Source: Bacteroidota bacterium (GTDB taxonomy: Bacteria; Bacteroidota; Ignavibacteria; UBA10030). From it: DNA of 64,000 nucleotides. The position numbers were made by a program, and so were the translations under genes. Below are positions 4,657 through 53,724 of the stretch, piece by piece. Numbering within the stretch: position 1 is the stretch's first letter; each line of letters begins with the position of its first letter. Under the pieces are notes generated by a model that did no database searches, was not told where the DNA came from, and saw only the letters and a list, made by a program, of their open reading frames with translations. The stretch lies in NCBI GenBank assembly GCA_021813905.1, contig JAKAJH010000011.1, positions 1 through 64,000 of the forward strand. The letters run 5' to 3'.

Positions 4657-5802
4657 ATGAATCTCGCCGATCCGCTCCTCGCCGTGCCTCTCCTGGCAGG
4701 CATCTGGTATCTGTCGGTCCATGCGGGCCTGCTCGCGGGACTGCGACGAATCTCGCGGGGACGAACCGCAACGGCGCGGCCGCGTGTTTCGGTGATCGTC
4801 GCCGCGCGCAACGAAGAACCGGTGATCCCCGCTCTTCTTGAGGCGCTCCGCCGGCAAACCTATCCGGAGATCGAATTCGTGATTGTGGATGACCGCTCGG
4901 AGGATCGCACAGCGGCGATCGTGACCGAACTGTGTGCGCATGATCGTCGGTTCCGGCTGGTGCGCATCACCGAACCGTCGGAGGACATGCCGGCCAAGAA
5001 GCACGCGCTGCGCAGCGGCATCATCGCCAGCGCGGGTGAACTCTTGTGCTTCACCGATGCCGATTGCCTCCCGGGGCCGCGATGGGTCGAGCGCCTGGTC
5101 GAACTGTTCGATGAGAGGACAGGGTTCGTGGCCGGCTATTCCCCCTACCGGATCCGCCTCGCCGACGGGAAGCCGGCGTCCACGGGCAATGCCGGCAAGT
5201 GGCTCGATCGGTTCATTGCATACGAGGAATTGCGCGGTGCGATCTGGTCGGCCGGGGCCATCGGCATGAATCGCGGCTGGCTCTGCACGGGGCGCAATCT
5301 TGCGTATCGACGTGCGGCATATGACGAGGTCGGCGGATTCGAACCGATCAAGATGTCGGTCTCCGGCGATGACGATCTCTTTCTGCAGGTGGTGCGCCGG
5401 AAGACCCGGTGGGACATCCGGTATTGTCTTGCGCCGGACAATTTTGTGCCGACGTTTCCTCCGGAGTCGTTTGGCGATTTCGTCCGTCAGCGCACGCGCC
5501 ATTTTTCCGCCGGCAAGCATTTCCGCGCGCTGCAGAAGCTCTTCTTTCTCTCCTATCACGGCGCGAATCTCATCCTGTATGCTTCTCTGATCGCTGTCGC
5601 GATCGGCGCTCCCATTGCCGCATTGGCCGGATTCGCCCTCAAGTTCATCGCCGACGGGGCGCTGATCCTTCGCGGTGCGTCGGCCTTCGGGGAGCGCGCA
5701 TTTCGATTCCGGTTCCCGCAGATGGAACTGCTCTACCTCCTCTACAATACCTTCATTGGTCCGCTCGGATTCGTCGGGAAGGTGAAATGGAAACAGGCGT
5801 GA
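4657..5802 (+). CDS. Membrane glycosyltransferase family 2, first of three in cluster
   Basis: A 381-residue protein with an N-terminal membrane helix, a cytoplasmic GT-A domain (VSVIVAARNEE start, FVIVDDRSED nucleotide-binding stretch, FTDADC metal site) and hydrophobic segments at the C-terminus. The acceptor-side motif reads QRTRH in place of the processive-synthase QxxRW, a notable His for Trp change. The open frame runs further upstream, but the sequence before ATG 4657 is not family-like, so that ATG is chosen. It transfers a sugar from an activated nucleotide donor to a membrane acceptor; donor and acceptor are unknown. Its end overlaps the following flippase-like gene, and the next five genes follow with overlaps or tiny gaps, so this is the head of an operon. 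Confidence 0.85.
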   Translation: MNLADPLLAVPLLAGIWYLSVHAGLLAGLRRISRGRTATARPRVSVIVAARNEEPVIPALLEALRRQTYPEIEFVIVDDRSEDRTAAIVTELCAHDRRFRLVRITEPSEDMPAKKHALRSGIIASAGELLCFTDADCLPGPRWVERLVELFDERTGFVAGYSPYRIRLADGKPASTGNAGKWLDRFIAYEELRGAIWSAGAIGMNRGWLCTGRNLAYRRAAYDEVGGFEPIKMSVSGDDDLFLQVVRRKTRWDIRYCLAPDNFVPTFPPESFGDFVRQRTRHFSAGKHFRALQKLFFLSYHGANLILYASLIAVAIGAPIAALAGFALKFIADGALILRGASAFGERAFRFRFPQMELLYLLYNTFIGPLGFVGKVKWKQA

Positions 5803-6779
5803 ACTCCGTTCCGGTGACGCCCGCGGTCTCCCGTACCCGGCGAATTCTCGTCGGATTTGCGCGCACGGTCATCGCCGTACTGACATTGTACTTCGTCGTC
5901 GAGTCGGTGAGTTGGAAGAATGTTCAGTCCGCATTCCTGAGCGCCCGCTTAGGTCCGATGGCGGTCGGAGCCGTCCTGCTGTTGCTGAATCTCGCTGCGC
6001 GGACCCGGAAGTGGCAGATGATGGTGGACTCGCTGCGTTCGGGAACGACCTTCGCGGAGTCGGCGCGGTCGCTGCTGCTCGGTATCTCGTTCGGGAGCGT
6101 GACGCCGGCGGAGATCGGCGAGCTGGCGGGCCGCACGCTCCATCTTCCGGGTGCACGCCGGTCTCACGTTGTCGGTCTGACACTTCTCGACCGGCTCCAG
6201 ATTATGCTTGTCTGGGTGCTCTTCGGTGTGGGAGCGCTTGCGTTCCTGCTGATGCGTCCCGGACCGCTGCAGTGGCTCTCTGTGATCGCGGCGCTGATCT
6301 TTCCTTCGATCGTAGCGTGGCGTCTGGATCTGTTGGGGCGTCTCGGCCACGCCGTGAATGACCGGTGGATGCAGCGGGGATGGATCACGCGGGTGCTGGA
6401 CGGATTCAGTTGCCTGACGCCGCGCGTGCGGGCACGAACGCTCGCACTCACGGTGGGTTTCCATCTGATCCTCTGCGCGCAGCTCTATGCATTTGTGAAT
6501 GCGTTTGCCGTTGTCAGCGTGATCGATGCCGTGCTTGCCGCCTCGGCGGTGATGTTCGTGAAGGCGATGCTGCCGATCTCGCTCGCGGATCTGGGCGTGC
6601 GGGAAATGGCCGCGGTGTACTTTTTCGGTCTCGTCGGCGTTCCGGCCGCTGCGGCGCTCAACGCATCCCTCCTTCTCTTTGTGGTCAATATCGTCGTGCC
6701 CGGCACGGTAGGTGCCCTGGAGTGGTGGCTTGTCCGTTCCCGCCCCAACACGACACCCGATGCGGAGCGACAACGGTGA
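5787..6779 (+). CDS. Flippase-like integral membrane protein (UPF0104 / LPG-synthase TM family)
   Basis: About 330 residues, almost all hydrophobic, with roughly eight membrane spans. The ARxRKWQMM segment after the second helix and the SFGSVTPAEIGELAGR stretch are typical of the AglD/MprF-transmembrane (COG0392) family. The APAG-like conserved glycine region near the C-terminus (LPISLADLGVREMA) also fits. Such proteins are thought to move or bind lipid-linked sugars; MprF flips lysyl-phosphatidylglycerol. The start is ATG 5787, preceded by GGAAGGTGA; a GTG at 5799 giving a GTGA overlap with the upstream stop is an alternative. It lies between two GT2 genes, which suggests translocation of the glycolipid they make. 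Confidence 0.82.
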   Translation: METGVNSVPVTPAVSRTRRILVGFARTVIAVLTLYFVVESVSWKNVQSAFLSARLGPMAVGAVLLLLNLAARTRKWQMMVDSLRSGTTFAESARSLLLGISFGSVTPAEIGELAGRTLHLPGARRSHVVGLTLLDRLQIMLVWVLFGVGALAFLLMRPGPLQWLSVIAALIFPSIVAWRLDLLGRLGHAVNDRWMQRGWITRVLDGFSCLTPRVRARTLALTVGFHLILCAQLYAFVNAFAVVSVIDAVLAASAVMFVKAMLPISLADLGVREMAAVYFFGLVGVPAAAALNASLLLFVVNIVVPGTVGALEWWLVRSRPNTTPDAERQR

Positions 6780-7888
6780 ACACGCTGAGCGTTCTTCTCG
6801 TGACGGCTCTGGGGATCTTCACCCTGCACTACGTGTATTTTCTCACGCGTGTGCGCTTGGGACTTCTGGCGCTCGGCACGCATCCGTGCTCGTCCGACGA
6901 TCCGCCGGTCACGATCGTCATCGCGGCGCGGAACGAAGAAGATCGGATCGCACCGTGTCTGGAATCGCTCTGCCGGCTGGACTATCCCGCCGGCCGCCTG
7001 GAGGTGATCATCACGGACGATCACTCCGGGGATCATACTATCGCCGTGGCGCGCTCCTTCACCGGATGTCTGCACGGACTGCGCATCCTCGAGCCGGATT
7101 CGGCCGGCAGTACGGCGTCCCGCGGAAAGACGGCGGCGCTGCGGCGCGGGATCGACCTGGCAACCGGGGAGATCATCCTGACCACGGACGCGGATTGTGT
7201 CGTTCCCTCCGGCTGGGTGCGCTCGATGGTCGCGCACTTTCGGAGTGATGTCGCACTCGTGTCCGGACCGGTGCGTGAAGCCGGCGGCCGCAATTTCTTG
7301 GGCCGGCTCGAATCGCTCGAATTCCTCGGACTCATCACCACGGGAGCCGGACTGATCGGCGCGGGACGTCCCATCATCTGCAATGGCGCGAATCTCGCCT
7401 ACCGTCGGACCGCATACGAGGCGGTCGGAGGATTCACGGGCACGAGCGACGACGAGTCGCTGATGAACGCCATCGTACACCGGAAGGTGGGCACCGTGGC
7501 GTTTGCGGCGGATCCGTCCGCCATGGTCATCACGCGCTCGGAGAATACGGTCGGGCGATTCCTGCGGCAACGCATCCGTTGGGCCTCCAAGCGCGGACGG
7601 TATGAGGACCCAACAATTCTTGTCACGCTCGTGCTGCTGTATGCGTTCTTCCTGTCCGTGCTGGCCACCGCCTGTCTGATCCCGCAGGACGCGCTGCTTG
7701 CCGTACCGTTGGCCGTGGTGCTCGTCGGAAAAGCACTGATCGAGTGGGCGGCGCTTCGTGCGGGCGCGCGCCTCCTGGGCGATCGCGTGCCGCTGCTTCC
7801 CTTCCTCGTTGCAGAGCTGTTGCACGTTCCGTACATTGTGATCGCGGCCGCTGTCGGTCAGATCGCGGCGCTGCGCTGGAGGCACTGA
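6776..7888 (+). CDS. Membrane glycosyltransferase family 2, second of three
   Basis: A 370-residue GT2 enzyme with an N-terminal helix, a VTIVIAARNEED start, the LTTDADC metal-binding motif, an acceptor motif QRIRW matching QxxRW of processive synthases, and C-terminal membrane spans. It starts at GTG 6776, which overlaps the upstream TGA by four bases (GTGA), with GGAG-like sequence a few bases before. Protein architecture resembles poly-GlcNAc/hyaluronan-synthase-like enzymes, but the product cannot be named. Its own stop overlaps the start region of the deacetylase, which supports concerted action on one glycan. Confidence 0.85.
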   Translation: MNTLSVLLVTALGIFTLHYVYFLTRVRLGLLALGTHPCSSDDPPVTIVIAARNEEDRIAPCLESLCRLDYPAGRLEVIITDDHSGDHTIAVARSFTGCLHGLRILEPDSAGSTASRGKTAALRRGIDLATGEIILTTDADCVVPSGWVRSMVAHFRSDVALVSGPVREAGGRNFLGRLESLEFLGLITTGAGLIGAGRPIICNGANLAYRRTAYEAVGGFTGTSDDESLMNAIVHRKVGTVAFAADPSAMVITRSENTVGRFLRQRIRWASKRGRYEDPTILVTLVLLYAFFLSVLATACLIPQDALLAVPLAVVLVGKALIEWAALRAGARLLGDRVPLLPFLVAELLHVPYIVIAAAVGQIAALRWRH

Positions 7889-8520
7889 CGATCTTCCCCT
7901 TCCGATATCCGACGATCGCGCACCGCCTGCTCCTGCCCGAAGTCGTCTGTGCCACGGGAAGTGCCGGCGTGCATCTGACCTTCGACGACGGACCGGATCC
8001 CGTATCCACGCCGCGCCTGCTCGAGATCCTCACCGCCCATCACACGCATGCAACGTTCTTCTGCTCGGGGAGCGCCGTGCGCACATACCCGGATATCGCA
8101 CGGCGGATCGCCGAAGAAGGGCACGCCATCGGCAATCACGGTGATTCGCATCGGGGATTCCTCTTCCGTCCTGAAGAATTCATTCGCTCGGAGATCCACG
8201 CCGCGGACCTTGCCATTTCGTCGAGCACCGGAAAGACGCCGAACCTGCTCCGTCCGCCCTACGGCGCGTTCGGCGCCCGAACAGTGCGGATCGCGCGGGA
8301 GTCGGGCAAGCGGGTCGTGCTGTGGTCATACGATGCGCGTGACTTCGCATCCGCCAATGCAACCCGACTTTCCGCAAACATTCGAAACCATGTGCGGCCC
8401 GGCGCGATCATTCTGCTGCATGACACGCCGGCGACGATGCCGCTCTTCGAGGCGTACCTTCCTTCACTCCTGAACGATCTTGCTGTCCGTGGTATCCCCT
8501 GTCTCCCGGTGACGGTATGA
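7885..8520 (+). CDS. Polysaccharide deacetylase (NodB homology, CE4)
   Basis: About 211 residues of NodB fold. All catalytic motifs are visible: TFDDGPDP (base and metal Asp), NHGDSH (metal histidines), RPPYGAFG, LWSYDARDF and IILLHDTP with the catalytic His. It removes N-acetyl (or O-acetyl) groups from a sugar polymer or glycolipid. No ATG, GTG or TTG lies at a sensible place: the conserved N-terminus begins at the stop of the preceding GT2. A CTG at 7885 overlaps that stop (CTGA), with GGAGG just before it; an ATC at 7891 would sit eight bases after GGAGG. Translation is therefore probably coupled to the upstream gene with a rare start codon. The 3' end overlaps the next GT2 (ATGA). Confidence 0.85.
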   Translation: MTIFPFRYPTIAHRLLLPEVVCATGSAGVHLTFDDGPDPVSTPRLLEILTAHHTHATFFCSGSAVRTYPDIARRIAEEGHAIGNHGDSHRGFLFRPEEFIRSEIHAADLAISSSTGKTPNLLRPPYGAFGARTVRIARESGKRVVLWSYDARDFASANATRLSANIRNHVRPGAIILLHDTPATMPLFEAYLPSLLNDLAVRGIPCLPVTV

Positions 8521-9608
8521 TGTTCGAGACATTCCTGGTGATTGTCACCGTGCTCTATGTGGTTCAGGGCGTGCTGTTGCTCATCGGCCTTCGCCGGAAA
8601 CGGGACGCCGCGACGGATGATCGTCCGTTCGTGTCGGTCGTGATCGCCGCACGCGATGAAGCGCACAACATCGGGGCGTGTCTGCGTTCCGTGCTGGACC
8701 AGACATACGCCGCCGATCGGTATGAGATCATCCTGGCGGACGACGGATCGACCGACGGAACCGCGGATATTGCGCGCGGCACTGCGGCCGATGACGTGCG
8801 CTTCCGGTTGCTCACAGTCGTACCCGAACAACGGCTTCCGGGAAAAACCGGCGCGTTGGCGCAGGCGATCGATCAGGCGCGCGGTGAAATTGTGCTGATC
8901 ACGGATGCCGACTGTGTTGTTCCGCCGACGTGGGTGGAAGCCACCGCCAAGCGGTATGCGCCGGACGTCGCACTGGTGGGCGGTGTCACGCTGCATCAGA
9001 CGACGCGTCCGTTCGACGGGATGCAGTCGCTGGACTGGGCGTACATCCTCGGCATGGCGGCATCGACGGCAGGATTCGGATATCCCCTCGGGAGCATCGG
9101 GAACAATCTCTCCTTCCGCAAAGCAGCGTATGACGCGGTGGGCGGCTATCGCGCGCTGAAATTCAGCGTGACCGAGGATTACACGCTGGTGCAGGCCATT
9201 GTGCGACACAGCCGATGGCGATATCTCTATCCCATCGATCCGCGCATCCTGGTGGAGACAAAGCCGTGTCCGACGATCTCGGCGCTGATCCGACAGAAGC
9301 ATCGATGGGGCACCGGCGGACTGGACATGCGCTGGGGCGGCATGCTGATCGGTATCATCGGTTACCTTGCCCACGCGGCGCCGTTCGTTATGCTGTGGTG
9401 GGGCGGTGTGATCGCAGCGGCCACGGCACTGCTCGTCAAGAGCATCGTCGACTACGCGTTCCTGTATTCCATCCTCTGGCGGCTCGATCGCACGGCCGAT
9501 CTGAAGTACTTCTGGTGGTTCGAAGTGTATTTCACCGCGTACGTTCTGGCGCTTCCGTTCCTCGTCTTCTTCGGCGGACCGGTTCGCTGGAAAGGACGAT
9601 CATTCTGA
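8517..9608 (+). CDS. Membrane glycosyltransferase family 2, third of three
   Basis: A 363-residue GT2 protein with one N-terminal helix, a VSVVIAARDEAHN start, DDGSTDGT nucleotide site, ITDADC metal site, ED general-base region (SVTEDYTL) and QKHRW acceptor motif, then three or four C-terminal helices. It is a paralogue of the two preceding GT2 proteins but clearly diverged from both. The start is ATG 8517, overlapping the deacetylase stop (ATGA); a second ATG follows immediately. Together with the deacetylase and flippase-like protein it probably builds a modified membrane glycan. Confidence 0.85.
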   Translation: MMFETFLVIVTVLYVVQGVLLLIGLRRKRDAATDDRPFVSVVIAARDEAHNIGACLRSVLDQTYAADRYEIILADDGSTDGTADIARGTAADDVRFRLLTVVPEQRLPGKTGALAQAIDQARGEIVLITDADCVVPPTWVEATAKRYAPDVALVGGVTLHQTTRPFDGMQSLDWAYILGMAASTAGFGYPLGSIGNNLSFRKAAYDAVGGYRALKFSVTEDYTLVQAIVRHSRWRYLYPIDPRILVETKPCPTISALIRQKHRWGTGGLDMRWGGMLIGIIGYLAHAAPFVMLWWGGVIAAATALLVKSIVDYAFLYSILWRLDRTADLKYFWWFEVYFTAYVLALPFLVFFGGPVRWKGRSF

Positions 9609-9618
9609 CGGGCCCGCA

Positions 9619-11208
9619 ATGATCTTTCCACCCGTTGTCCTGTATGCGGAGACACACTACCGGTTCCGCGCTCTGCCGAGCTTCCTCCGGAAACCCGAAC
9701 CGGAGGTCGTCATCGATGCGCCATTCCGCATCGAACCGGGTGCTTCCCTGCCGGTCCTGATTCTCGTCAAAGACGCGGATCGCTATCCGAGCCGCCTGCT
9801 TCGGGTGACCGCGACGCTCTCGTTGCGGGGCGGGATGCGACGCACCCTCGAACTGCTGGCGGAACCGTGGTCGTGTGAGGGACCGCTGCAGTGGAGGGTC
9901 GTGCCCATTTCCGTAGAAGGATTCCGGGGCACGATCGACTGCGACGTGGAGTTCGAGCTTGAGGCAGCCGGTCGCCGCACGATCTACCGGAACGACAACC
10001 ACCGGACGACCAGCCATGCGCCGCTGACGGTGCTCGTCGCCGAGGAGCCGCTGCCCGTCCTGCCGAACCTGCATCTCGGAGAGCCGCACGCGCATTCATC
10101 GTACACGAGTGACCAGGTGGAGTTCGGTGTTCCCCTCGACGCGGCGCGCGTACTCGCGCAGGCGGCGGGCCTCTCATATTTCTGCATCACGGATCATTCT
10201 TACGATCTGGATGATCACGCCGACGACTTTCTGCGAAACCATCCGGACCTTCCGAAGTGGAAGCAGTTTCAGGTGGAAGTGGATCGTCTGAACGCCCGGG
10301 GGGATGGACCCGCGATCGTACGCGGTGAAGAAGTCACATGCAGAAATGCTCGGGGCCAGAACGTGCATGTACTCCTGTACGGCATTCGCGGATTTGTCCC
10401 GGGGTCGGGCGACAGTGCGGAGCGGTGGCTTCGTACGCGAAGCGAGCATTCCATCACGGAGGTGCTGTGCGGACTCGAACCGCAGGCGGCGGCAGTCGCC
10501 GCCCACGCCCGGGAGCGCGTCTCGCTGCTTCAGCGCCTCCTGCTGGGCCGGGGGATCTGGGAGGTGGATGATCTGCGCGCTCCGGGACTTCACGGATTTC
10601 AGTTTGCGAACGGACGGCGCGATGCAGCCTTCGACGAAGGCTACACATGGTGGATCCGGCTCCTGCTGGAGGGCCGCCGCCTCGTCAGCATTGCGGGAGA
10701 CGACGCGCACGGAAACTTCAATCGCTTCCGGCAGATCCGCATTCCTTTTGTGCGGATGTGGGAGCATCACGACCAGCTCTTCGGACTGATGCGCACGGGC
10801 GTCTTCAGCGCAGGGTCAGACGAAGCGGCGATCCTGCATGGGCTTCGGAGCGGTAAGTCGATCCTGACCGACGGTCCCGTGCTGAATCTCCGGGTGAGCG
10901 GTGACGCGGATCCGGAGACGTCCATCGGATCGGAGGTCGTCGGATCTCGCGTGTCCGTTCGTCTTGAGGCGCGCTCGAGCACGGAATTCGGCGGCTTTGA
11001 AACGATCCGACTGCTGCACGGCGAGGTCGGCGCCGCGGCGGAGCGGGAGATTCCCACCGGTTCATTCCGAGGATTGACCGGCGCAGAATCGGCGGCGGTC
11101 ATCACCGTCGAGCGGAACGGCTACCTCCGTGCCGAGTGTTTCACGACGGCGCCTGACGGACGAACGCATTTCTGTTTCACGAATCCGGTCTGGCTTCGCG
11201 TCGGGTAA
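9619..11208 (+). CDS. PHP-domain metallohydrolase with an unassigned N-terminal domain
   Basis: A 529-residue protein. Residues 1-145 look like a beta-rich domain I cannot assign. From about 150 a PHP domain begins (LGEPHAHSSYTSD; then CITDHSYD; later AHARER and GDDAHGN), which supplies the His/Asp metal ligands of CehA/McbA-type phosphoesterases. The last 100 residues again look like a beta domain (DGPVLNLRVSG). No signal peptide is evident. It starts at ATG 9619, 10 bases after the third GT2, and is the last member of the glycosylation cluster. A phosphodiester- or phosphomonoester-cleaving role on a lipid-linked intermediate is possible but is inference. Confidence 0.75.
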   Translation: MIFPPVVLYAETHYRFRALPSFLRKPEPEVVIDAPFRIEPGASLPVLILVKDADRYPSRLLRVTATLSLRGGMRRTLELLAEPWSCEGPLQWRVVPISVEGFRGTIDCDVEFELEAAGRRTIYRNDNHRTTSHAPLTVLVAEEPLPVLPNLHLGEPHAHSSYTSDQVEFGVPLDAARVLAQAAGLSYFCITDHSYDLDDHADDFLRNHPDLPKWKQFQVEVDRLNARGDGPAIVRGEEVTCRNARGQNVHVLLYGIRGFVPGSGDSAERWLRTRSEHSITEVLCGLEPQAAAVAAHARERVSLLQRLLLGRGIWEVDDLRAPGLHGFQFANGRRDAAFDEGYTWWIRLLLEGRRLVSIAGDDAHGNFNRFRQIRIPFVRMWEHHDQLFGLMRTGVFSAGSDEAAILHGLRSGKSILTDGPVLNLRVSGDADPETSIGSEVVGSRVSVRLEARSSTEFGGFETIRLLHGEVGAAAEREIPTGSFRGLTGAESAAVITVERNGYLRAECFTTAPDGRTHFCFTNPVWLRVG

Positions 11209-11249: not shown

Positions 11250-12281
11250 ATGCCCATGAGCAGTACACATCCGATCACCACGAAACAAATCCTGACCCAT
11301 GGCGGTCTGTTCCTGCTGACGCTGTTCACGACGACGGTCGCCGGCGTGCAGTGGATCGGCGCCAATCCGTTCGAACTGACGAATCTGCCGTTGGGATTGC
11401 CGTATGCGCTGTCGATTCTGTTCATTCTCTCCTCCCACGAATTCGGACATTACTTCGCCACGCGGGCGCATGATGTCGATGCGACCCTTCCGTATTATCT
11501 GCCCTTCCCTCCCATCCCGTCACTGATGGCGATGTTCCTGAACTTCGGAACGTTCGGCGCGGTGATCCGGACGCGCTCGGTGGTGCCGTCGAAGCGGGCG
11601 ATGTTCGATATCGGCGTCGCGGGACCGATCGCAGGATTTGTGGCCTCATTGCTCGTGCTCGCGTACGGATTCACGCACCTTCCGGGCCGCGAGTTCATGC
11701 TGTCCGTTCATCCGGACTACGACTTCACGATCAACGCCTCGACGGGCGCAAAAGGCATGGGGCTTGCGTTTGGCGACACGGCGTTGTTCGACGGCTTGCG
11801 CTGGCTTCTGACCGATCCGGCGCGTCAGTTTGTCCCGCCGATGTCGGAGATCTATCATTATCCGTTCCTGTGCGTCGGATGGTTCGGGTTGTTCGTGACG
11901 GCACTGAACCTTCTGCCGATGGGACAGTTCGACGGCGGTCACATCGCGTACGCGATGTTCGGCGAGCGGCATCGCACCGTGGCGCGCTGGACATTTCTCG
12001 GACTGATGGTGCTCAGTCTTCCGTCGCTGCTCGACGTTGTCGTCCGGACGATACTGGAAGCGGTCCGCGGCCATGATCCCGGCACGCTTATTCCGTTCAC
12101 CGAATACAGCTGGTGGGCGTGGTTCGTCTGGGCGCTCATCGCGTTCTATGTGGTGAAGTTGTATCATCCCGCACTCCCCGACGAGACGCCGCTGGACCGC
12201 CGGCGCGTGATCATCGGCTGGATCGCCGTGGCCATCTTCATTCTCTCCTTCTCGCCGAATCCGATCGTCGTGTGGCAGTAG
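11250..12281 (+). CDS. Site-2 protease family (M50) membrane metalloprotease
   Basis: A 343-residue integral membrane protein with the zinc motif HEFGH (His63, Glu64, His67) inside a membrane segment and the third ligand Asp228 in LLPMGQFDGGH, exactly as in site-2 proteases. Between them is a PDZ-less loop with AGPIAGF, another S2P hallmark. At least seven hydrophobic segments are present. It cleaves other proteins within the membrane; it resembles the plant EGY/Bacteroidetes 'peptidase M50' type and not RseP, as no PDZ domain is seen. ATG at 11250 or 11256 may be used. It is separated from the glycosylation cluster by 41 bases and could be part of the same transcript. Confidence 0.9.
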   Translation: MPMSSTHPITTKQILTHGGLFLLTLFTTTVAGVQWIGANPFELTNLPLGLPYALSILFILSSHEFGHYFATRAHDVDATLPYYLPFPPIPSLMAMFLNFGTFGAVIRTRSVVPSKRAMFDIGVAGPIAGFVASLLVLAYGFTHLPGREFMLSVHPDYDFTINASTGAKGMGLAFGDTALFDGLRWLLTDPARQFVPPMSEIYHYPFLCVGWFGLFVTALNLLPMGQFDGGHIAYAMFGERHRTVARWTFLGLMVLSLPSLLDVVVRTILEAVRGHDPGTLIPFTEYSWWAWFVWALIAFYVVKLYHPALPDETPLDRRRVIIGWIAVAIFILSFSPNPIVVWQ

Positions 12282-13235: not shown

Positions 13236-14797
13236 CGCGTCTTCTTATCTCCACGTTGTTCTGTCTGATGGCCGGCCTGGCAACCGCGCTTTCGCAGCCG
13301 CTGCGCGAGTACCGGCTGAACGGGACGACGGCATTATCCACCCTTCCCCGTTCGAATGTCGTGAACGACATCCGCATCTTCCGTGACACAGTGTGGCTTG
13401 GGACCGAGAACGGCCTGACGGCCACGGCTGACGGCGGAGCGCATTGGTTCGAGTTCAGCGGTTCCGACGCTCCGGCGAACAATTCCATTTCCGCGGTGGC
13501 CATGAACGACAGCGTGATCTGGGCGGCCGCCGCCTTTACTTCAAAGCAGGCAGATCAGTCCCTCCCGGCGGGTGGCGGACTGTTCCGGTCCACCGATCGG
13601 GGCTTGCACTGGGTGCATATCCCGCAGCCGGTGGATTCCGGTCTGGTCGACACGCTTCGCGACTACGGAGCGACGGGCATTCGCTCGCTCGCGATCACGA
13701 CGGAAATCAACAACCTGACGTATGACATCGCGGTGACGGGCCGGGACGTGTGGATTGCCAGCTTTGCCGGAATGCTGCGACGCTCATCGGACGGGGGCGC
13801 GACGTGGCGAAAGGTCGTGCTTCCCCCGGACACCGGACAGGATTTCATCAGCGCTACTGATACGTTGCACTTTGATCTCGCGCCGACCGGAGGAAAGGCC
13901 GGGCTGACCGGGAACCTGAACCACCGCGTCTTCTCCGTGTATGCGCAGAACGATACGACGATCTGGGTCGGCACCGCGGGCGGCATCAACCGTACCACGG
14001 ACGGAGGCGTGAGCTGGCGGAAGTTTTCCCATCAGAATCAGGCGCAACCGATCTCGGGAAACTTCGTGGTCTCGATCTGCGGACAGGACTGGAACGGCCG
14101 TCACCTGATCTGGGCAGCCACCGTGAATGCCGAGGCCGCCGATGAAGTCCGCGGCGTGAGTTTTACGGACGACGACGGCGTTACCTGGAAGACCGCGCTG
14201 CACGGGACTTTTACGCACAATGTTACGGCGCATGATTCGGTGGTGTATGCGGCAACCGACGATGGGACCTTCCGCTCGGACGATTTCGGCGTGAGCTGGC
14301 ACCGATCGGGAAGCATCCGCGACGGGAAGACCGGGGCACGCATTGCGGATGCGGCCGCATACGCCGTCGCGGCGGCGGGTGATTCGGTCTGGATCGGCGG
14401 GCCGGAGGGACTCGCGGTGACACCGGACAATGCCGGCGAGCCGTTCGGTGCACGCTGGTCGGTGTTCCGGACGTATCAGCCGCTGGCATCGGGTGCGAGT
14501 ACGTATGCGTACCCGAACCCGTTCTCGCCGTCGCAGGAAGTCGTCCGCCTGCATTACCGGCTCAATGGCACCGCAGGGGCGTCGCCGAGAGCAACGACGA
14601 TCCGGATTTTCGATTTCGGGATGATGCCGGTGCGTGTTGTGGTGCAAAATGCACCGCGCCCCGTGGGAGTGGACCTGGATGATCTGTGGGATGGCCGCGA
14701 TGATCACGGCAACCGTGTGGCGAACGGAGTGTACTTCTACCGGATCGAAGACGGCGACGGATCTCCGTTCTGGGGAAAGATCATGGTGCTCCAATGA
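13232..14797 (+). CDS. T9SS cargo: photosystem-stability/sialidase-like repeat protein with C-terminal sorting domain
   Basis: A 521-residue secreted protein with a signal peptide (MTRLLISTLFCLMAGLATALS, then Gln at +1). The body carries several BNR/YCF48-like blades recognisable by repeats such as SSDGGATWRKV, TTDGGVSWRKF and RSDDFGVSWHRS, so a beta-propeller is expected. The last 90 residues form a FlgD-like/type A sorting domain beginning YAYPNPFSPS and ending with GNRVANGVYFYR, the signal recognised by the type IX machinery. It should be exported across the outer membrane and attached or released. It overlaps both neighbours by four bases, so it is cotranslated with a lipoprotein and a PorV-like protein. 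Confidence 0.85.
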   Translation: MTRLLISTLFCLMAGLATALSQPLREYRLNGTTALSTLPRSNVVNDIRIFRDTVWLGTENGLTATADGGAHWFEFSGSDAPANNSISAVAMNDSVIWAAAAFTSKQADQSLPAGGGLFRSTDRGLHWVHIPQPVDSGLVDTLRDYGATGIRSLAITTEINNLTYDIAVTGRDVWIASFAGMLRRSSDGGATWRKVVLPPDTGQDFISATDTLHFDLAPTGGKAGLTGNLNHRVFSVYAQNDTTIWVGTAGGINRTTDGGVSWRKFSHQNQAQPISGNFVVSICGQDWNGRHLIWAATVNAEAADEVRGVSFTDDDGVTWKTALHGTFTHNVTAHDSVVYAATDDGTFRSDDFGVSWHRSGSIRDGKTGARIADAAAYAVAAAGDSVWIGGPEGLAVTPDNAGEPFGARWSVFRTYQPLASGASTYAYPNPFSPSQEVVRLHYRLNGTAGASPRATTIRIFDFGMMPVRVVVQNAPRPVGVDLDDLWDGRDDHGNRVANGVYFYRIEDGDGSPFWGKIMVLQ

Positions 14798-15768
14798 GGA
14801 CCACGTCACCCGTTCGTTTCATGCTGGTCCTGAGCGCGTTGGTGGCCTTGGGCGCCGGCGTTCTTCGCAGTCAGGCGCTCTCCACCGTCGGCGGGAAAGC
14901 CGGGGCACCATTCCGGACGGGATTCGGTCCCCGTGGCATCGCAATGGGCAATGCGCTCGTGGCCGTCACGGACGGCGCCCTGACCGCGTACTACAATCCC
15001 GCCGTCCTCCCCTTTCAGGATGTCGCCTGGGCGGGCGCGTCGGTGAGTTTCCTTTCGCTGGACCGACATCTGAACGCACTCACGTTCGTGCAGCCGCTCC
15101 GGCCGCAGGCGGGATTCTCGCTCTCCGTGCTGAATGCCGGCGTCGGCGGCATTGAAGAGCGGAATCGCGACGGGATCCAGACCGGCACGCTGTCCACGTC
15201 AGAGAATGCGTTCCTGTTCTCGTTCGCCTTGCGCCCGGATCCTGCTGTTTCGCTGGGACTGACGGCGAAGCTGTTGTATTATCCGCTCTACTCCGGGGTC
15301 ACGAGTACGACGGCAGGACTCGATGTCGGCTTCCTGATTCGTCTCAGCGATTCGTGGAGCGTTGGCGGCACGCTGCAGGACCTCAATTCACGGTACCGTT
15401 GGGAGACGTCGTCGCTGTACGGCCAGAACGGCGCTTCCACGATCGATCGCTTCCCGGTGCGCCGCCAGATCGGCGTTGCATGGCACGCGAAAGAGGCCGG
15501 GATGACGGTCGCCGCCGCATATGAAAATACCGCGGGACTATCGCTCCTGAAGGCCGGTGCGGAGTATTCGCTCCTCGGCTCATTTGCGGTTCGTGCCGGC
15601 ATCGACCAGATGAGTACCGACCGAGCCGTCAGCGCGCGCCCGTCCTTCGGAGCATCGTTCGGGACCGCCGTCGGCGGTGTTCCGGTCCGAATGGATTACG
15701 CGTTTCAGTACGATCCGTACGGTCCCGGCGGAATGCATGTCGTTTCTCTGAGTGCGGCGTTCAAATGA
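14794..15768 (+). CDS. PorV/PorQ family outer-membrane beta-barrel protein
   Basis: A 324-residue protein with a signal peptide (cleavage likely before Gln-Ala-Leu) and the N-terminal signature GPRGIAMGNALVAVTDG followed by YYNPAVL, which is diagnostic of PorV/PorQ (UPF0164-like FadL-fold) proteins. The rest alternates hydrophobic/polar like a beta-barrel and ends in an aromatic-rich strand. PorV shuttles T9SS cargo from the translocon to the PorU sortase; PorQ belongs to the attachment complex. Which one this is cannot be decided. It sits between the CTD cargo and a second family member with ATGA overlaps on both sides. Confidence 0.82.
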   Translation: MRTTSPVRFMLVLSALVALGAGVLRSQALSTVGGKAGAPFRTGFGPRGIAMGNALVAVTDGALTAYYNPAVLPFQDVAWAGASVSFLSLDRHLNALTFVQPLRPQAGFSLSVLNAGVGGIEERNRDGIQTGTLSTSENAFLFSFALRPDPAVSLGLTAKLLYYPLYSGVTSTTAGLDVGFLIRLSDSWSVGGTLQDLNSRYRWETSSLYGQNGASTIDRFPVRRQIGVAWHAKEAGMTVAAAYENTAGLSLLKAGAEYSLLGSFAVRAGIDQMSTDRAVSARPSFGASFGTAVGGVPVRMDYAFQYDPYGPGGMHVVSLSAAFK

Positions 15769-16661
15769 AGACATTTCCGTTCGTCTCTCTGATATTCGCA
15801 GCGTCGGCTTCACTCTTTGGCCAGGGCGTCAGCACGGGCGGCACGACGCTGAAGCTACCGCTGACGGCCGCCTCGGCAGCCATGGGAGAATCGGATGTTG
15901 CCGTCCCGGGTCTGGCGGGAACGCTGGCCGGCAATCCGGCGCTCATCGCGGGTCTGCAGGAAACGCAGATCGTGTTTACGCATCTCGCCTGGATCCAGGA
16001 GACGCAGGGACAGGCGCTCGCGGCAGCGACACCGGTGTGGAACGGTCTGGTCGGTGCGCTGGGGGTGAGTTCGGTCAGCATCCCGGGCATCGAAGTCCGG
16101 GAGCAGCCCGGTCCGCCGATCGGTTCGTTCACGGCGCGGTCGCTCGCGATCCGCGGGGCGCTGGCCTATCCGTTGTCCGATGAGATCGTCGCCGGCGTCG
16201 GGATGAAGTATCTGTATGAGAAGCTGTACGTCGATGATGCGTCGGGGACGGCGTTCGACCTCGGCGGGTCCTATGCACCTGCCGACGCACCGTATGCCCT
16301 CGGCGTGAGCGTAAGCAATCTGGGTTCGATCGGAGCGTTCCGGTTCGCAAGGACCTCCCTGCCCACGTCCGTGCAGGCCGGCGGGATGTACCGGGCGGAT
16401 CTTGCCGCGTTCGAATTCCTCGGTACGGCGGCGGTCGTGCGGGAAACACATCCCGGTGAGAACCGGCTTCGCCTCGGCGGGATGGTATCATTTCGCGGAT
16501 TCGTCGCCCTGCGCTTCGGATACGAAACCGGATATGACAGTCGCGGCCTCTCGGCCGGGATCGGTCTGCGTCTGCAGTTCGTCCGGCTGGATTACGCGTA
16601 CATTCCGTTCAACTACGATCTGGGAAACGCGCACATGATCTCGGTGGGGCTTCTGCTCTGA
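15765..16661 (+). CDS. Second PorV/PorQ family protein
   Basis: A 298-residue paralogue of the preceding protein. A short signal peptide ends LFG with Gln at +1. Next comes SAAMGESDVAVPGLAGTLAGNPALIAG, in the style of the PorV/PorQ N-terminus, here pairing AMG with a GNPA motif in place of the YNPA seen in its neighbour. A beta-barrel follows, with aromatic girdle residues near the end (LDYAYIPFNYDLGNAH). It starts with ATG overlapping the previous stop. Two tandem members in one operon with a CTD cargo suggest a dedicated shuttle pair for this cargo. Evidence is family resemblance only. Confidence 0.78.
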   Translation: MKTFPFVSLIFAASASLFGQGVSTGGTTLKLPLTAASAAMGESDVAVPGLAGTLAGNPALIAGLQETQIVFTHLAWIQETQGQALAAATPVWNGLVGALGVSSVSIPGIEVREQPGPPIGSFTARSLAIRGALAYPLSDEIVAGVGMKYLYEKLYVDDASGTAFDLGGSYAPADAPYALGVSVSNLGSIGAFRFARTSLPTSVQAGGMYRADLAAFEFLGTAAVVRETHPGENRLRLGGMVSFRGFVALRFGYETGYDSRGLSAGIGLRLQFVRLDYAYIPFNYDLGNAHMISVGLLL

Positions 16662-38832: not shown

Positions 38833-40494
38833 TCAGCGAAGGGCGAGTCCTGCGGATATGATGAATTCCGGCCGATAGTCGTGATTTTGCAAGGGATACC
38901 GCTCGTCCTGGAGGGACCGATACCACAGACGCGCGTTCAGATAGACGTCCCGAATGGGCTCGTATGTTCCCCCGACGCCGAACGTGCGCTCGACGTGAAG
39001 AGGACCGTACAGGAACGGCAGGTCTCCGCCGTCCGGTTCGTACTGGTTGATGATATCCGCCTTGCCTCCCTTGCGATACACTTCGGAGAAAGCGGAGAGC
39101 TTCAGTCCGCGCACCGGCCGGAGTGAGGCTTCGAGATAGAGATCGTCCGCATTCTGACCGATCCAGTCGCCGAGGTCATAACCGTTGTTGGTGAAATTGG
39201 CGGCCGTGTATTTGTGGTTGTAGACCCAGGGATTGCCGCGCGAATATTCCGCCAGGAACTCCACGTTGTTCATCAGCAGATCGTACGTGTGGGCACCCAG
39301 CGTGAACGCGATCTGACGGCGTGACTTGTTCGGATCCAGGATCGCGTCGGTATTCAGCTCGTCAATGAAGAGCGACGTGTAGAAGTCGACGTTGCGCAGA
39401 GCGGTCACGTCGAGCGAGCCGAAGATCTGCGAATTGTCTTTGTCGCGGTTGTACCACTCCCCCGCCTTGAAGAACATCACCGGAATCATGTACATCAGCA
39501 GCGGGCCCCGGTCGCTGTACACGATCGACTCACCGAGCGAAAGGTCCACTCCGCGCACAACGGAGAACTCCAGCATGTGCGCCGCGATATATTTGGAGTG
39601 ATCCACCTGGCGAAAGACCGAGTACGAAGAATTCGGATAACTCGTGTAATAGGAACGGACGGAATCGACGACATTCGAGTTCAGTTCGCCGTGGAAGTAG
39701 ATGAAGTCGATATCGTCCGTCAGATTCACGCGCATCTTCACCTGCGGATACGACGGCGCCTTGTCCGAAAAGATCACCGTACCGTGCTCTCCGAATCCCC
39801 AGACGTTCTTCATCTTCTCCAGTGAGAAATCGAAGGCACCGACCCGGAATGTGAATTGCACATCGGCATCGTTGTATTCCAGCACGCCCGGATACTGCCG
39901 CGACGGTACCATGCCGGGCATGGGCGAATTGGCTTTCGTCAGGTTGACCCCCGGCCCGGTCTCCCGGTTATCGACTGCGTTCAGATAGAAGCCGACGTTG
40001 TCGAACGCGTAGCCGTACACACGCAGCCCTTGCGCCCGAAGACTCGCGGTGCCTGAGTCGGTCCGGGTGTGCGCGAGCTTGAAATCGACGTCGAGATTCA
40101 GCACGCCGCCGTTCAGCGGCGTCGAAATGACGTGCCAGCGGGTTTCGGTCGGCTCGGCATCACCCGCCAGCTTCAGCAGCTCGTACTGGAACTCGGTCTT
40201 CAGAAACTCGAACTCGTCCCGTTCCACGCGCGTCATCTGATCCTTGCGGGACTCGAGTTGCTTGAGCTGTTTCGCGAGCGTGAGACGCGACAGCGGCTTG
40301 GCGGCGTCGCGGTAGCCTTCCAGCAGATGGCGCGCTTCCATCCGCTTGAGGAAGGGATACACCTCATTGTCGGTGGGAAGATAGACCGGTTGCGCCGCCA
40401 CGCGGGGCCAGAGCGCCGCGACGAGCGCGAGCACGGCGATCAGCCGCCGGAGGGATGAACGGCGAACGGGACTTCTCAGCGGAACGATTTCCAT
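38833..40494 (-). CDS. Wzi-like outer-membrane beta-barrel protein (capsule assembly family)
   Basis: A 553-residue exported protein from ATG 40494. A basic N-terminus and signal peptide end VAA with Gln at +1. A helical segment of some 60 residues follows (LPTDNEVYPFLKRMEARHLLEGY resembles the Wzi N-terminus), then a long beta-barrel with many aromatic residues, ending in FIISAGLALR. Wzi binds capsule polysaccharide to the surface in E. coli. Its location downstream of PorU and a GT2 in the polysaccharide region supports an attachment or assembly role. The start overlaps the GT2 end by 19 bases. Confidence 0.72.
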   Translation of the reverse strand: MEIVPLRSPVRRSSLRRLIAVLALVAALWPRVAAQPVYLPTDNEVYPFLKRMEARHLLEGYRDAAKPLSRLTLAKQLKQLESRKDQMTRVERDEFEFLKTEFQYELLKLAGDAEPTETRWHVISTPLNGGVLNLDVDFKLAHTRTDSGTASLRAQGLRVYGYAFDNVGFYLNAVDNRETGPGVNLTKANSPMPGMVPSRQYPGVLEYNDADVQFTFRVGAFDFSLEKMKNVWGFGEHGTVIFSDKAPSYPQVKMRVNLTDDIDFIYFHGELNSNVVDSVRSYYTSYPNSSYSVFRQVDHSKYIAAHMLEFSVVRGVDLSLGESIVYSDRGPLLMYMIPVMFFKAGEWYNRDKDNSQIFGSLDVTALRNVDFYTSLFIDELNTDAILDPNKSRRQIAFTLGAHTYDLLMNNVEFLAEYSRGNPWVYNHKYTAANFTNNGYDLGDWIGQNADDLYLEASLRPVRGLKLSAFSEVYRKGGKADIINQYEPDGGDLPFLYGPLHVERTFGVGGTYEPIRDVYLNARLWYRSLQDERYPLQNHDYRPEFIISAGLALR

Positions 40495-41270
40495 ATGTCG
40501 GACCACGTGGTTGTCTCTTCGGATTTTGGATAGGATCGGGCAGACTTCCCGGTTACAAGATAACGAATATCGTTCAAGATGTGAAACAACACCACTGACA
40601 GCGCATGGGACTCGAGGCGGCGAGTGGAGACGGTCGCGTGCGCGTGCCGATCGATGAGGCACCGGCCGAGCCGCGCAATGCGCCGGCTGAGGTCGATGTC
40701 CTCCGAAATCCCGAGATCTTCCCGGAAACCTCCGACGGCCCGGAAGGCTTCGGTCCGATACGCGACGCAGATGCCGGGAAATAGCTCGATCCCCACAGAA
40801 TGGAACACGCGTACAAGCACGTACGTGCCGTGATAAACGAACCGCGCGAACCACGATCCTCCCCCCGGCTTCGGGACGCCGGTGAATGCGACGAGGGAAG
40901 GATCTTCAAACGCCCTGATGCATCGCGAGCCGAATTCCGCCTCAAGCGCGGTATCAGCGTCGACGAAGAGCAGGATCGATCCGCGTGCCGCTGCGGCTCC
41001 GGCGTTTCTACCCACGGCGATCCCGCGCTCGGGGCAAACGACAAGCCGATCGGCAAGACGATGCGCGATCTCCTGCGTGCCGTCGGGCGACTCGGCGTCC
41101 GAGACGATGATCTCCAGACTTCCGGGAGAAAGATGCATCCCCCGGACCGCGCGGATGCATGACTCGAGGTACGCTCCCTCGCGGTATGTCGGGATCACCA
41201 CCGAGAGAGCCGGAGCAAGGGCCTCAGCGGACCTTTGCAAGTTTTCCGATGGATTCTTCGACTGTCCCAT
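40476..41270 (-). CDS. Glycosyltransferase family 2 (PorU-adjacent)
   Basis: A 264-residue GT2 enzyme from ATG 41270: SVVIPTYREGAYL, IIVSDAESPDGT, LLFVDADTALE metal motif, GGFREDLGISEDIDLSRR acceptor region and a C-terminal hydrophobic segment. Similar to TIGR04283-type and carotenoid/hopanoid-sugar GT2s, but not assignable. Its start lies 47 bases inside the 3' end of porU and its stop inside the Wzi-like gene, so all three are one operon. Confidence 0.85.
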   Translation of the reverse strand: MGQSKNPSENLQRSAEALAPALSVVIPTYREGAYLESCIRAVRGMHLSPGSLEIIVSDAESPDGTQEIAHRLADRLVVCPERGIAVGRNAGAAAARGSILLFVDADTALEAEFGSRCIRAFEDPSLVAFTGVPKPGGGSWFARFVYHGTYVLVRVFHSVGIELFPGICVAYRTEAFRAVGGFREDLGISEDIDLSRRIARLGRCLIDRHAHATVSTRRLESHALSVVLFHILNDIRYLVTGKSARSYPKSEETTTWSDIWKSFR

Positions 41271-44200
41271 CAACCGTGACCGTCACCTTATAGAAATACA
41301 CGCCGTTCGCGAGTTCATCCCCTTCTGTGTCGCGGCCGTCCCACCGGATCGAATTGAAGCCGATGCGCAGATCACTCTGCGGGACACGTTTCTCGCAGAT
41401 GAGACGGCCGGCGACCGAGTAAATCCGGATGCGCCCCTCGTCCGGGACACGCGAGCCCGTCACATCAAATGTAATATACGTTTCTGTTGCGAAAGGATTG
41501 GGGAAATTGATGACGTTTCTCAAGGATGGCCGTTCCTCCACTCGAAACACGAGCGCGGACGCGGCGGAATCCGCGGCGTTGCCGCTGGCATCGATAGCCT
41601 GCAGTGACATGGAGTGCTCTCCCGAGGTGAACCGAGGACGCACCACCACCATCGCCTTCCGAGCGCCGGTTCCCGACTCAAAGAGACTGTCCGGTGTCAC
41701 GGTCGAAAGCGCAACCCTCCGTCCGTCGAACAACAGGACGACGTTTTCCGGATCATCATACGGCAAAGGATTGTCGTCGAAGATGGAGATGCGCACTTCC
41801 GGTGCGGCGGAGACGTAATCCCCATCCCGCACCACCTGTCCGTCGAATGTCACTTCGAATCCCGGACGGAGCGTATCGCGGACGACAAAGATACCCGTGG
41901 CGAAGCCGTCGTTGTTCCGATACAACTCAGGGATGAGTCGGGACGGATCAACGATCAGCATGAGAACGTTCTGTCCCGCTCTTCCGGCCGTTGCGTACGG
42001 AACGACCAGCGGCACGGCTGCGCCCGGTGCGAGATGCGGTACCACCACGGTGTCGACGGGATGGATTCCCGATCGATCCATGGCAGTGATGACGACGGTG
42101 ATACTGTCCGCCGGAGATGCACCGGCGTTAAGAAGGGTCGCCGAAAGTGTCGCCACGGTTCCTTCCAGGAGCGTATCGGCGTCGAGATGGACGGACTGAT
42201 AATTCAGCGCCAGCTCGGCGGGCGGCACAGCCACGACGGACCATCCCTGAAGTACGGGCGGCTCCGGAGCGCATCCTGTCGCGAGAGACGCAGCCAGCTG
42301 CAGTTCGGGATAGGCTCGTGCGGACACGGCTGAGAGATCGAGCGAGCCATTGAGGGGGACGACGCCGATGGTATCGATCGTGCCGCCCGAACGAATGCCG
42401 AGAACCACGCCCGTGATGGACGCATCCGGGGAGACGATGCCGCGCAGCGAAGCGGAGATCCACGCTCCGGCCGGACCGATCCGCGGACTGGTGATCGAGC
42501 CCCCGGTTCCCTGCCGCGTGAATGTTGTATCGATGATGACCTTTCCCTGCCCCGATCGGAGATATCCCTCGGGCATACGTCCGACAGGAGCGCCGCGTCG
42601 TCCCAGAAACGCCCAGGAGGCACGATATGCCGCGGGATAGACGACGCTGTCGATCATGACGCTTCCGAACTGACGGATGGCCGTCCGGGCGGCAGCGGTG
42701 AGATTCATGCTTCCTTCATCGATGATCGCGAATGCCACGAACACGCCGCTCGAAATGAGCGCCAGGTCCGAGGCGAGTTGAGTCGAGGAGGCACTGCCGG
42801 CATATGTGTCATACGTTTTGCTGGAGATCACGCGAAGCGACGCCGAGTCAAGCAGCGTTATGCTGATGCCGCGATTGAAGGAACTCGGCAACACGCCCGT
42901 TCCGTTGATCTCGACCGATCCGAATCCACCGTCGTTGAATCCCGAGGAAATCAGCCGAACGTGGTACGGACGGTCGAGCAGTGTCACGGTAGAATCCCGC
43001 ACAGTCGCGGCCCCGGTGCGGATCGCCCGAGCCCAGTCGGTGGAATCACGGGGCGTCCAGCGGGTCACGGAGTCCGGCGAGATCCGGAAGCTTCCTGAAG
43101 AGGACCGCCGAGCGGAATTCTTCACACGCGCCCTCCAGTAGTACGTCATGCCTGGCTGCAACGCCGGGCCGGAGATGCGTGTGGTCGTCATGTCCAGCGG
43201 TGCGACGATGTGGTACGGCCGCGGAAATGTGGCCACCGTATCGAGAAAGCATTCCAGACTGTCGCCGGCGGGATCACGTTGGACCGGATTCAGAAACTCG
43301 AGCGCGGACGACGGACTCTCAAAGCACCGAGACGGCGAGATGAGTCGGACTGCGTTCGATGCGACGACGGCGTGCACTGTGCTCCGGTTGTTCGTCCGGT
43401 CGTCCTCGTCAATTGTTCCGTCCGAATTCAGATCGACGGTAAACGTGTACAGACCGGGCCGATCCCTGATCCCGTACCGGATCCGCACGGTGTCATCGAA
43501 TGCCGGCAGCGGACGCCGGAGAACGGAATCAGACGCAACGGCGTCAACCGCGCAAGTGATCCTGATGTCGACCGAATCGATCGGATAGGAACCTGTGTTC
43601 CGGTACGGGATGACCACCATCAGCGAATCGGTGTCGTCGGCGGGATCCGCCGGAATCGTCGCCGGCGCCAAACCGCTCGTGGAAAATTCCGGCCTGGTCG
43701 GAACAGCCAGCCGGAGGGCTGGATCACCGAGCAGGGTGTTGGTGAGCATCATGATTCGATTGACACTCGGCGGAAAGTACGCCCCGGCTCCCCCGGATGC
43801 ATTCAGCCGCGTGATCTTTGCCCGAAGGTGGGCACGCCCGATCTCCCTCACGCTGTCATTCAGGAATTGCCGGTAGAAATCGACCGGCAACGTTGTCCCG
43901 ATCGACGTGAACCCGAGCGACGAATTGCCCACGTAGCCAATGGCCGATCCGAGCTCGCCGACCGTGAACAGCTCGCCGAACGCGCGAATGTCCGGCTCGG
44001 CGAAACGGGCAGTCGAACATCCGAAATCCGAGATCAACGGGAACCGACCTCGTGCATTCGCCAGCCGGGCAGGATCTCCGATCCCGTTGTCCCACGTCTG
44101 CGTGCCGCTGTGGCCGATATAGTTGATGAAGAGCGCGCCGTTGTCCAGCGTTCTGCGGACTTCATCCGCGGTGTAAGGTCCGAAATCGCTTCGCGGGTTT

Positions 44201-46753: not shown

Positions 46754-47941
46754 TCATTCGAATTTCCTTCGCATGCCCGACGGTCGCGACCCAACGCCGT
46801 CGGCGCAGGCGGAGATTTCGGATTTGGTCCTTCGGATTTCCTCTTCATACACCCGATTTGTCTTCTCGATGAACTCTTCATAGCCGAAGACTTCCGCCAC
46901 TTTGTCGGCAGCCTTCTCCCCCATCCGCATCCGGAATTCCTGATCCCCGATCACCCGCTCGATCGCTGCGGCCAGTTGCGTCACATCGCCCGGAGGCACC
47001 AGTAGTCCCGTCTTTCCATGCTCGATGAACTCAGATATTCCCCCGACATCGGCGGCGATGTGCGCCTTTCCCACCGTGGCCGCTTCCAAAAGAACATACG
47101 GCATCTCCTCCTGACGCGATGCGAGCACCAGCAGATCACTCACGTTGCACACGGCTTCCACGTCCGATTCAGGCGGAAGAAATCGGACGACTTGCCCAAG
47201 TCCCAGCTGCTGCGAAAGCGCGACCAGCTTTCCTTTCTCCTCCCCGCCGCCGACGAGCAGCACGATCGCATTTGTCTGCTGCAGCACCGGGGAACACCGG
47301 CCGAGCGCTGCAAGAAGCGTCCGATGATCTTTGCGCGGTTCGAAATTCGCGACACTGGCGAGGACTAAAGCCTTTTCGGAAATCCCCAGATGCGCACGGC
47401 TGAAAGCCTTCTCGCCAGGCGTATAACGCCGGAACGGACGCACCCCGGCGTGAATGACGGAAACACTCTCCGCTCGCTTGCGATATCGCCTCACGAGATT
47501 CTCCTTCCCCGCTCCAGTCAGTGCGATCGTGCGCTGACCGAAGACAGAAAAGAGCCGCCGGTCGGAGAATCTGTTGTGACACGTTGAGATATGGGGGATG
47601 TTCAACCACAGCGCCACAAGCCGCCCGACGGCATCGGAGAATCGCTTGTGCGAATGGATAGCCCCGATGTTGCGCGATCGGCAGTACGATGCGAGCGTGA
47701 ACAATGAACGCACCAGCACGCTCGCGCCGTTGTGGCCGAAGTGAAGTCCCGTGGCGGAAAGGTCCACGAACTCCACCGACGGCTGAAGTTGCCGCACGAG
47801 CGGACCGTGAGCCGCCGCGACGGAAACACGCCAACCTCTGCCGGCAAGTCCGTGGGCGAGATCGACAACGTGCCGCGGGACGCCGCCGATCTCCATGTCG
47901 TCCGCAAGGAGCAGAATGCCCCTTTCCCGTTCAGCCGGCAT
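46754..47941 (-). CDS. Glycosyltransferase family 4 (downstream copy)
   Basis: A 395-residue GT-B enzyme. The N-terminus (LLADDMEIGGVPRHVVDLA) has the acceptor-side glycine loop of GT4. The C-terminal domain shows LASVANFEPRKDHRTLL and the EX7E donor motif in EEMPYVLLEAATVGKAHIA. It transfers a retaining sugar to the growing polysaccharide; the sugar is unknown. ATG 47941 overlaps the upstream GT4 stop by 11 bases. About 180 bases without a gene separate it from porU. Confidence 0.86.
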   Translation of the reverse strand: MPAERERGILLLADDMEIGGVPRHVVDLAHGLAGRGWRVSVAAAHGPLVRQLQPSVEFVDLSATGLHFGHNGASVLVRSLFTLASYCRSRNIGAIHSHKRFSDAVGRLVALWLNIPHISTCHNRFSDRRLFSVFGQRTIALTGAGKENLVRRYRKRAESVSVIHAGVRPFRRYTPGEKAFSRAHLGISEKALVLASVANFEPRKDHRTLLAALGRCSPVLQQTNAIVLLVGGGEEKGKLVALSQQLGLGQVVRFLPPESDVEAVCNVSDLLVLASRQEEMPYVLLEAATVGKAHIAADVGGISEFIEHGKTGLLVPPGDVTQLAAAIERVIGDQEFRMRMGEKAADKVAEVFGYEEFIEKTNRVYEEEIRRTKSEISACADGVGSRPSGMRRKFE

Positions 47942-53518: not shown

Positions 53519-53724
53519 GCTTTCCCCCTTTCAACGAAAGACCTGCTGCAGTGACGACGGATGCTTACAATACGGGGAGAAGGATGGGGAGACTACAGAG
53601 AGGTTGAATTAATGATACGATCGGCCTGACTGAGAAGCAAGTCCTCGGTCGCAAACACTGTCTGGTCGCAAGGTCGCTCGCAGATTTACTGTCACAGGTG
53701 CGCGAAGCCACGCGAACGCATAAT

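Follow-up and report, generated by a model that had tools for sequence, protein, structure and literature searches.

A conserved six-gene cluster for a predicted aminosugar glycolipid in Ignavibacteria and related phyla

The window analyzed here is a stretch of 64,000 nucleotides (positions 1 to 64,000, forward strand) of contig JAKAJH010000011.1 from the 3.08-Mb Ignavibacteria assembly GCA_021813905.1. Positions 4657 to 11208 carry six consecutive plus-strand genes, all with open reading frames, which form a conserved predicted biosynthetic unit whose most likely product is an aminosugar glycolipid. The original prediction, made from the sequence alone, had placed here three membrane glycosyltransferases of family 2 (GT2s), a flippase-like protein, a NodB deacetylase and a PHP-domain protein, and both families and coordinates were confirmed by the open frames and by Pfam and NCBIfam profiles run on the window proteins. 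The genes are as follows:

4657..5802, plus strand: GT2A, membrane GT2 of 381 amino acids, ATG start, hydrophobic segments at the N- and C-terminal ends; opens the cluster, with a divergent uridine kinase gene
5799..6779, plus strand: FLIP, flippase-like polytopic protein of 326 amino acids (PF03706, UPF0104/LPG_synthase_TM), GTG start, about eight hydrophobic segments
6776..7888, plus strand: GT2B, membrane GT2 of 370 amino acids, GTG start, motif QRIRW
7885..8520, plus strand: NodB, polysaccharide deacetylase (CE4/NodB fold) of 211 amino acids, inferred CTG start
8517..9608, plus strand: GT2C, membrane GT2 of 363 amino acids, ATG start, motif QKHRW
9619..11208, plus strand: PHP, CehA/McbA-type PHP metallohydrolase of 529 amino acids, ATG start

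The three GT2s matched PF00535 with E values of 1e-24 to 1e-27, FLIP matched LPG_synthase_TM (E = 1.7e-19), and NodB matched Polysacc_deac_1 (E = 6.5e-33). PHP matched the CehA/McbA metallohydrolase profile NF038032 (E = 2e-22) with a borderline 80.0 bits, exactly the curated cut-off of 80, and the Pfam PHP model itself gave no match to it; a homologue in a related locus (L146) scored 96.5 bits, above the CehA/McbA cut-off.

The chain of 4-bp overlaps described in the original prediction holds in part. The GT2A/FLIP, FLIP/GT2B and NodB/GT2C junctions overlap by 4 bp with ordinary start codons, the GT2B/NodB overlap (CTGA) exists only if NodB starts at the CTG at 7885, and GT2C and PHP are separated by a 10-bp gap. 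No ATG, GTG or TTG lies near the expected start of the window NodB, and the CTG at 7885-7887, where most relatives have ATG (ATGA to CTGA), is likely the start codon. Because GT2B and NodB overlap by 4 bp in 18 of 22 relatives, where NodB starts at an ordinary codon and the overlap is nearly always ATGA, and a TTGA overlap joins GT2C and PHP in 19 of 25, tight translational coupling is probably ancestral, with the window copy deviating at these two junctions. A promoter and terminator scan gave a signal no better than chance.

Related loci were collected by scanning for PHP in one genome per species (84,980 species), which found 269 relatives, of which 80 were kept; gene presence at these loci was taken from a tblastn map, and the named relatives are metagenome-assembled genomes of Ignavibacteria, Ignavibacteriales and Bacteroidetes. 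Scattering of the genes in relatives, which the original prediction had named as evidence against itself, was looked for and not found: among 27 same-family relatives with PHP, 17 retain the full order, and in another 6 the contig ends within the locus, the genes still present keeping their order. Because the identical gene order recurs in many genomes, the cluster is far beyond chance. In a second family, f5, a GT28-type gene is added or substituted between NodB/GT2C and PHP, at times with a radical-SAM gene. The FLIP-GT2B-NodB order is maintained across phyla, and many, though not all, of the loci from KSB1, Calditrichota, Zixibacteria and elsewhere have genes for GT2, flippase and NodB upstream of PHP; a radical-SAM gene often precedes PHP there. 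NodB is relocated in genera g14 and g15: it adjoins a GT2C-like gene, and close by are a sugar-nucleotidyltransferase-type gene and a protein with weak similarity to Wzi (PF14052, below cut-off).

Several loci carry further genes. KSB1-type loci, and some from Ignavibacteria, have radical-SAM genes inside the cluster (L146 8854-9867, L142 8892-9947, L110 5926-7023), those of L146 and L142 having the PTO1314 family as best match, below cut-off. In loci from Zixibacteria and KSB1, genes for DUF3108 proteins sit among those of the cluster (L125 9182-9949, L142 6794-7708).

PHP homologues are present in 35 of the 61 genomes searched, the source genome included. NodB, counted as present above 90 bits (a threshold chosen after the score gap was seen), occurs in 34 of these 35 genomes and in none of the 26 PHP-negative ones (Fisher's exact test, 2e-16; within the family, 1.4e-4), and FLIP occurs in 33 of 35 against 0 of 26 (3e-15). 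LpxC is found in 57 of the 61 relatives, cluster or not. Two genomes of genus g7, G007 (97% complete) and G020 (88% complete), have no LpxC match despite a complete cluster, and lipopolysaccharide (LPS) may be absent or diverged in them.

The three GT2s fall into separate groups. In a tree of 125 GT2s, GT2A lies in its own ortholog clade (support, 0.97) with members from KSB1, Calditrichota and Zixibacteria, and GT2B lies in a separate clade (support, 0.89) that likewise extends into other phyla; the GT2C group consists of what is left when the tree is rooted at its midpoint, and it carries no informative support value. Across phyla, GT2B-group genes are mostly found between FLIP and NodB, and GT2C-group genes mostly directly before PHP, GT28-PHP or radical-SAM-PHP. 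These preferred positions therefore point to an old assembly or to transfer as a unit.

Among the Protein Data Bank (PDB) chains matched by the GT2 profile at E < 1e-10, human ceramide glucosyltransferase (UGCG) was the only one whose alignment covered practically the whole length (6-363, E = 1.3e-17), and the remaining chains were matched mainly across the GT-A domain. Because the profile spans the full length of ceramide glucosyltransferase, a lipid acceptor is favored. The GT21-type architecture, consisting of an N-terminal helix, a GT-A domain with D, DxD, ED and Q/RxxRW motifs, and C-terminal helices, is present in the profile and in GT2C; GT2A differs at the last motif, with QRTRH where GT2B and GT2C have QxxRW. 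The GT2 profile thus shares with UGCG and HpnI-type GT21/GT2 enzymes the full length and the motif set, including TDAD at the second position, although the relationship is distant (E = 1e-17). The GT2C model (predicted local distance difference test [pLDDT], 92.9) has a single helix at the N-terminal end and three at the C-terminal end, and its fold is also similar to PcManGT and, with template modeling (TM) scores of 0.6 to 0.7, to processive hyaluronan and cellulose synthase cores.

NodB contains all five catalytic motifs of the CE4 family (TFDDGP, NHxxxH, RPPYG, D153 and LHD), which are invariant among its homologues, and its profile matched PgdA-type structures (E = 1e-54). Deacetylation of its substrate is predicted solely from this intact active site. 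The protein has no predicted transmembrane segment and no clear export signal, with no hydrophobic N-terminal segment above threshold, which suggests that deacetylation would take place in the cytoplasm. FLIP displays the conserved motifs GxxTPxxxGE...R and LPIS...DLG, and its profile found no sequence match in the PDB.

The PHP model (pLDDT, 90.9) has a PHP barrel flanked by beta domains on its N-terminal and C-terminal sides. The putative metal ligands H157, H159, D192, H193, E237, H250, H296, D362 and H364 are invariant among 35 homologues. A structure search returned only multidomain matches with TM scores near 0.2, which were treated as meaningless. The window-type group has the PHP barrel and full metal-ligand set in common with the CehA/McbA family, whose characterized members are known for carbamate pesticide hydrolysis; unlike these, it is marked by the N-terminal segment YAExHYxF, which is strongly conserved, and by its location beside glycolipid-type genes. 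No description of a lipid-biosynthetic role for the family was found in the literature.

The closest known systems are two recently characterized operons that make cationic aminosugar lipids. HexSDF of Clostridioides difficile encodes a synthase, a deacetylase and a flippase-domain protein that produce aminohexosyl-hexosyl-diradylglycerol, the aminosugar being joined to a lipid already bearing a hexose added by UgtA, which is encoded elsewhere (PMC10128005, PMC11898633). GpgSDF of Pseudomonas aeruginosa encodes a synthase, a predicted cytoplasmic deacetylase and a UPF0104-family flippase-like protein that produce glucosaminyl-phosphatidylglycerol, the lipid receiving N-acetylglucosamine (GlcNAc) before being deacetylated (PMC12713373). 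When the deacetylase is missing, the acetylated lipid accumulates (PMC10128005, PMC12713373). The window holds the same kind of gene set, with glycosyltransferase, polysaccharide deacetylase and PF03706/UPF0104 genes adjacent in one unit, FLIP being the putative counterpart of the MprF-flippase-domain protein of HexSDF. Its glycosyltransferases are nevertheless all GT2, whereas HexS, annotated as monogalactosyldiacylglycerol-synthase-type, belongs to GT28, and GpgS, the single glycosyltransferase of its operon, is GT4-type and predicted to be cytoplasmic; among the loci compared, those with a GT28-type gene are relatives of the window cluster. GpgD belongs to COG3233, and neither operon includes a PHP gene. 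By composition the cluster would thus resemble HexSDF and GpgSDF without being filed as a member, FLIP and NodB having been compared with HexF/GpgF and HexD/GpgD at the level of family annotation.

Taken together, these data make it fairly probable that the six genes are one biosynthetic unit producing an aminosugar glycolipid in the inner membrane. A single unit is supported because the order is kept, the GT2 groups are position specific, NodB and FLIP co-occur with PHP, and the relocated NodB stands beside a GT2C-like gene. The lipid is further supported because the HexSDF and GpgSDF precedents share this logic and because a GT28-type gene, of the HexS superfamily, lies between NodB and PHP in related loci. 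In the proposed pathway, the membrane GT2s would glycosylate a lipid acceptor at the cytoplasmic face with sugars that include at least one N-acetylated residue, cytoplasmic NodB would strip the acetyl group to leave a free amine, and FLIP would transfer the lipid to the outer leaflet. PHP would most likely cleave an ester or phosphoester on a precursor or on the product, perhaps in providing or completing the lipid acceptor, which is the least certain step. A suggested model is PlcP, a hydrolase encoded beside the lipid glycosyltransferase Agt, which frees diacylglycerol for glycosylation and which is annotated as phospholipase C, not as a PHP protein (PMC8528852); a similar role for PHP is offered as a hypothesis only. 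Of the original prediction, a membrane glycolipid or polymer that is synthesized, deacetylated and translocated, the glycolipid version is the best-supported reading.

Several observations weigh against this pathway. PHP stands alone in several lineages, including Bacteroidota family f21, and in the relative G011 (L042/L158) the GT2s, flippase and NodB are all gone while PHP stays between the uridine kinase and a regulator pair, so that PHP is a frequent, nonobligate partner of the remaining genes. Three of the 27 same-family relatives have no NodB at the locus (genera g14 and g15), so that NodB, too, is not an invariable companion of the other genes. The co-occurrence P values treat related genomes as independent, and there are few independent gains or losses. 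Cross-phylum order points to GT2B as the supplier of the sugar for NodB, whereas the relocation points to GT2C. Finally, the synthase-like fold modeled for GT2C and the QxxRW motif in two GT2s would be compatible with a short polymer, although polymer synthesis is disfavored.

In its fuller form, that alternative has one GT2 polymerizing an aminosugar into a processive polysaccharide partly deacetylated by NodB, as in poly-GlcNAc. The QxxRW motif, the likeness of GT2C to hyaluronan and cellulose synthases and the Wzi-like protein adjoining the relocated NodB/GT2C genes fit such a role, but the PgaC, NodC and CelA cut-offs are missed by a wide margin, there are only about four transmembrane helices, and the deacetylase appears to be cytoplasmic. 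Furthermore, a channel-forming synthase would make the flippase-like protein superfluous, and the three GT2s are separately conserved, which together leave a polymer unlikely. A match to the known poly-GlcNAc systems (PgaABCD/IcaADBC), the other outcome that the original prediction had set against itself, was not found: PgaC scored 58.5 to 75.4 bits against a cut-off of 422.3, and NodB shows no clear signal of an exported deacetylase.

A small probability is likewise given to the supply of a polyprenyl-phosphate aminosugar in the style of Arn or FlmF2-NaxD, in which undecaprenyl-phosphate N-acetylhexosamine made by a GT2 would be deacetylated by NodB and flipped by FLIP before a remote transferase used it to decorate lipid A or a glycan. 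The Arn and Flm routes combine a GT2, a NodB-type deacetylase or deformylase and a flippase, an enzymatic logic shared by the cluster; GT2C matches the fold of PcManGT, and LpxC in most genomes makes lipid A likely available as an acceptor. On the other hand, the ArnC equivalog scored 26 to 33 bits where matched, against a cut-off of 529, the unit has no periplasmic transferase gene (ArnT homologues were not searched for), and one GT2 would suffice where three are present.

It is very improbable that the deacetylated glycolipid offers its free amine to PorU, the sortase of type IX secretion, as the acceptor for cargo attachment. The window does have PorV-like genes some 3.6 kb downstream of the cluster and a PorU-related gene at a distance of about 30 kb, and synteny with PorV/PorQ-like genes is maintained. 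PorU, however, occurs in every one of the 61 relatives, the 26 that lack the cluster among them, and thus shows no phyletic association with it. Hopanoid glucosamine of the HpnI-HpnK type is hardly tenable, since the HpnI profile, matched nearly end to end by GT2B and GT2C, gave 48.5 to 62.6 bits against a cut-off of 310, and cluster-bearing genomes contain no convincing squalene-hopene cyclase, with one 27-bit fragment in G007 only. A Nod factor backbone (NodB, 136.8 against 240 bits; NodC, 38 to 42 against 550) and replacement of LPS, which finds no phyletic support in the LpxC distribution, were rejected.

The neighborhood of the cluster was also surveyed. Downstream, at 11250..12281 on the plus strand and outside the proposed pathway, lies a gene for an M50/site-2-protease-like membrane protein, named by eye from its sequence. 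Most Ignavibacteria relatives also have this gene after the cluster; in several of them (e.g., L080, L085 and L086) the two are separated by genes for a sigma-54-type regulator and a membrane protein on the opposite strand. The type IX secretion proteins of the window comprise a PorU-related protein (PorU2-like, below cut-off) and two of the PorV/PorQ family, at 41224-46575 and 14794-16661. A minus-strand gene (38833-40854) encodes a protein resembling, by eye, the Wzi-like protein beside the relocated NodB-GT2C in L154-L156, with no NCBIfam match. A polysaccharide-synthesis island (46754-63579; GT4-like, Wzx-like, polyprenyl glycosylphosphotransferase and UDP-sugar dehydrogenase-like genes, mostly named by eye) lies where GC content, about 0.59 at first, declines to 0.46 in the direction of the end of the window.

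The claim that no characterized pathway has this gene set needs qualification, because HexSDF and GpgSDF share the synthase-deacetylase-flippase logic; it stands for the combination of three GT2s with a CehA/McbA-type PHP protein, for which no characterized match was found, and no paper on the six-gene cluster was found in the open-licence literature. New here are the GT21-like synthases, their split into three groups that persists from phylum to phylum, and the partnership with PHP. The cluster, known here from metagenome-type assemblies only, suggests a third version of the synthase-deacetylase-flippase system, built on a different glycosyltransferase family and found in several phyla of the Bacteroidota-related group. 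More tentatively, Ignavibacteria, KSB1, Calditrichota and Zixibacteria may possibly have in common an undescribed class of amino-oligoglycosyl lipids made by three position-specific GT21-like synthases, with the CehA/McbA-type PHP protein performing a dedicated lipid-biosynthetic hydrolysis. If the proposed pathway is true, a free-amine glycolipid would be expected in the envelopes of these bacteria, the genes would serve as markers for such a lipid, and a widespread PHP metallohydrolase would gain a testable role.

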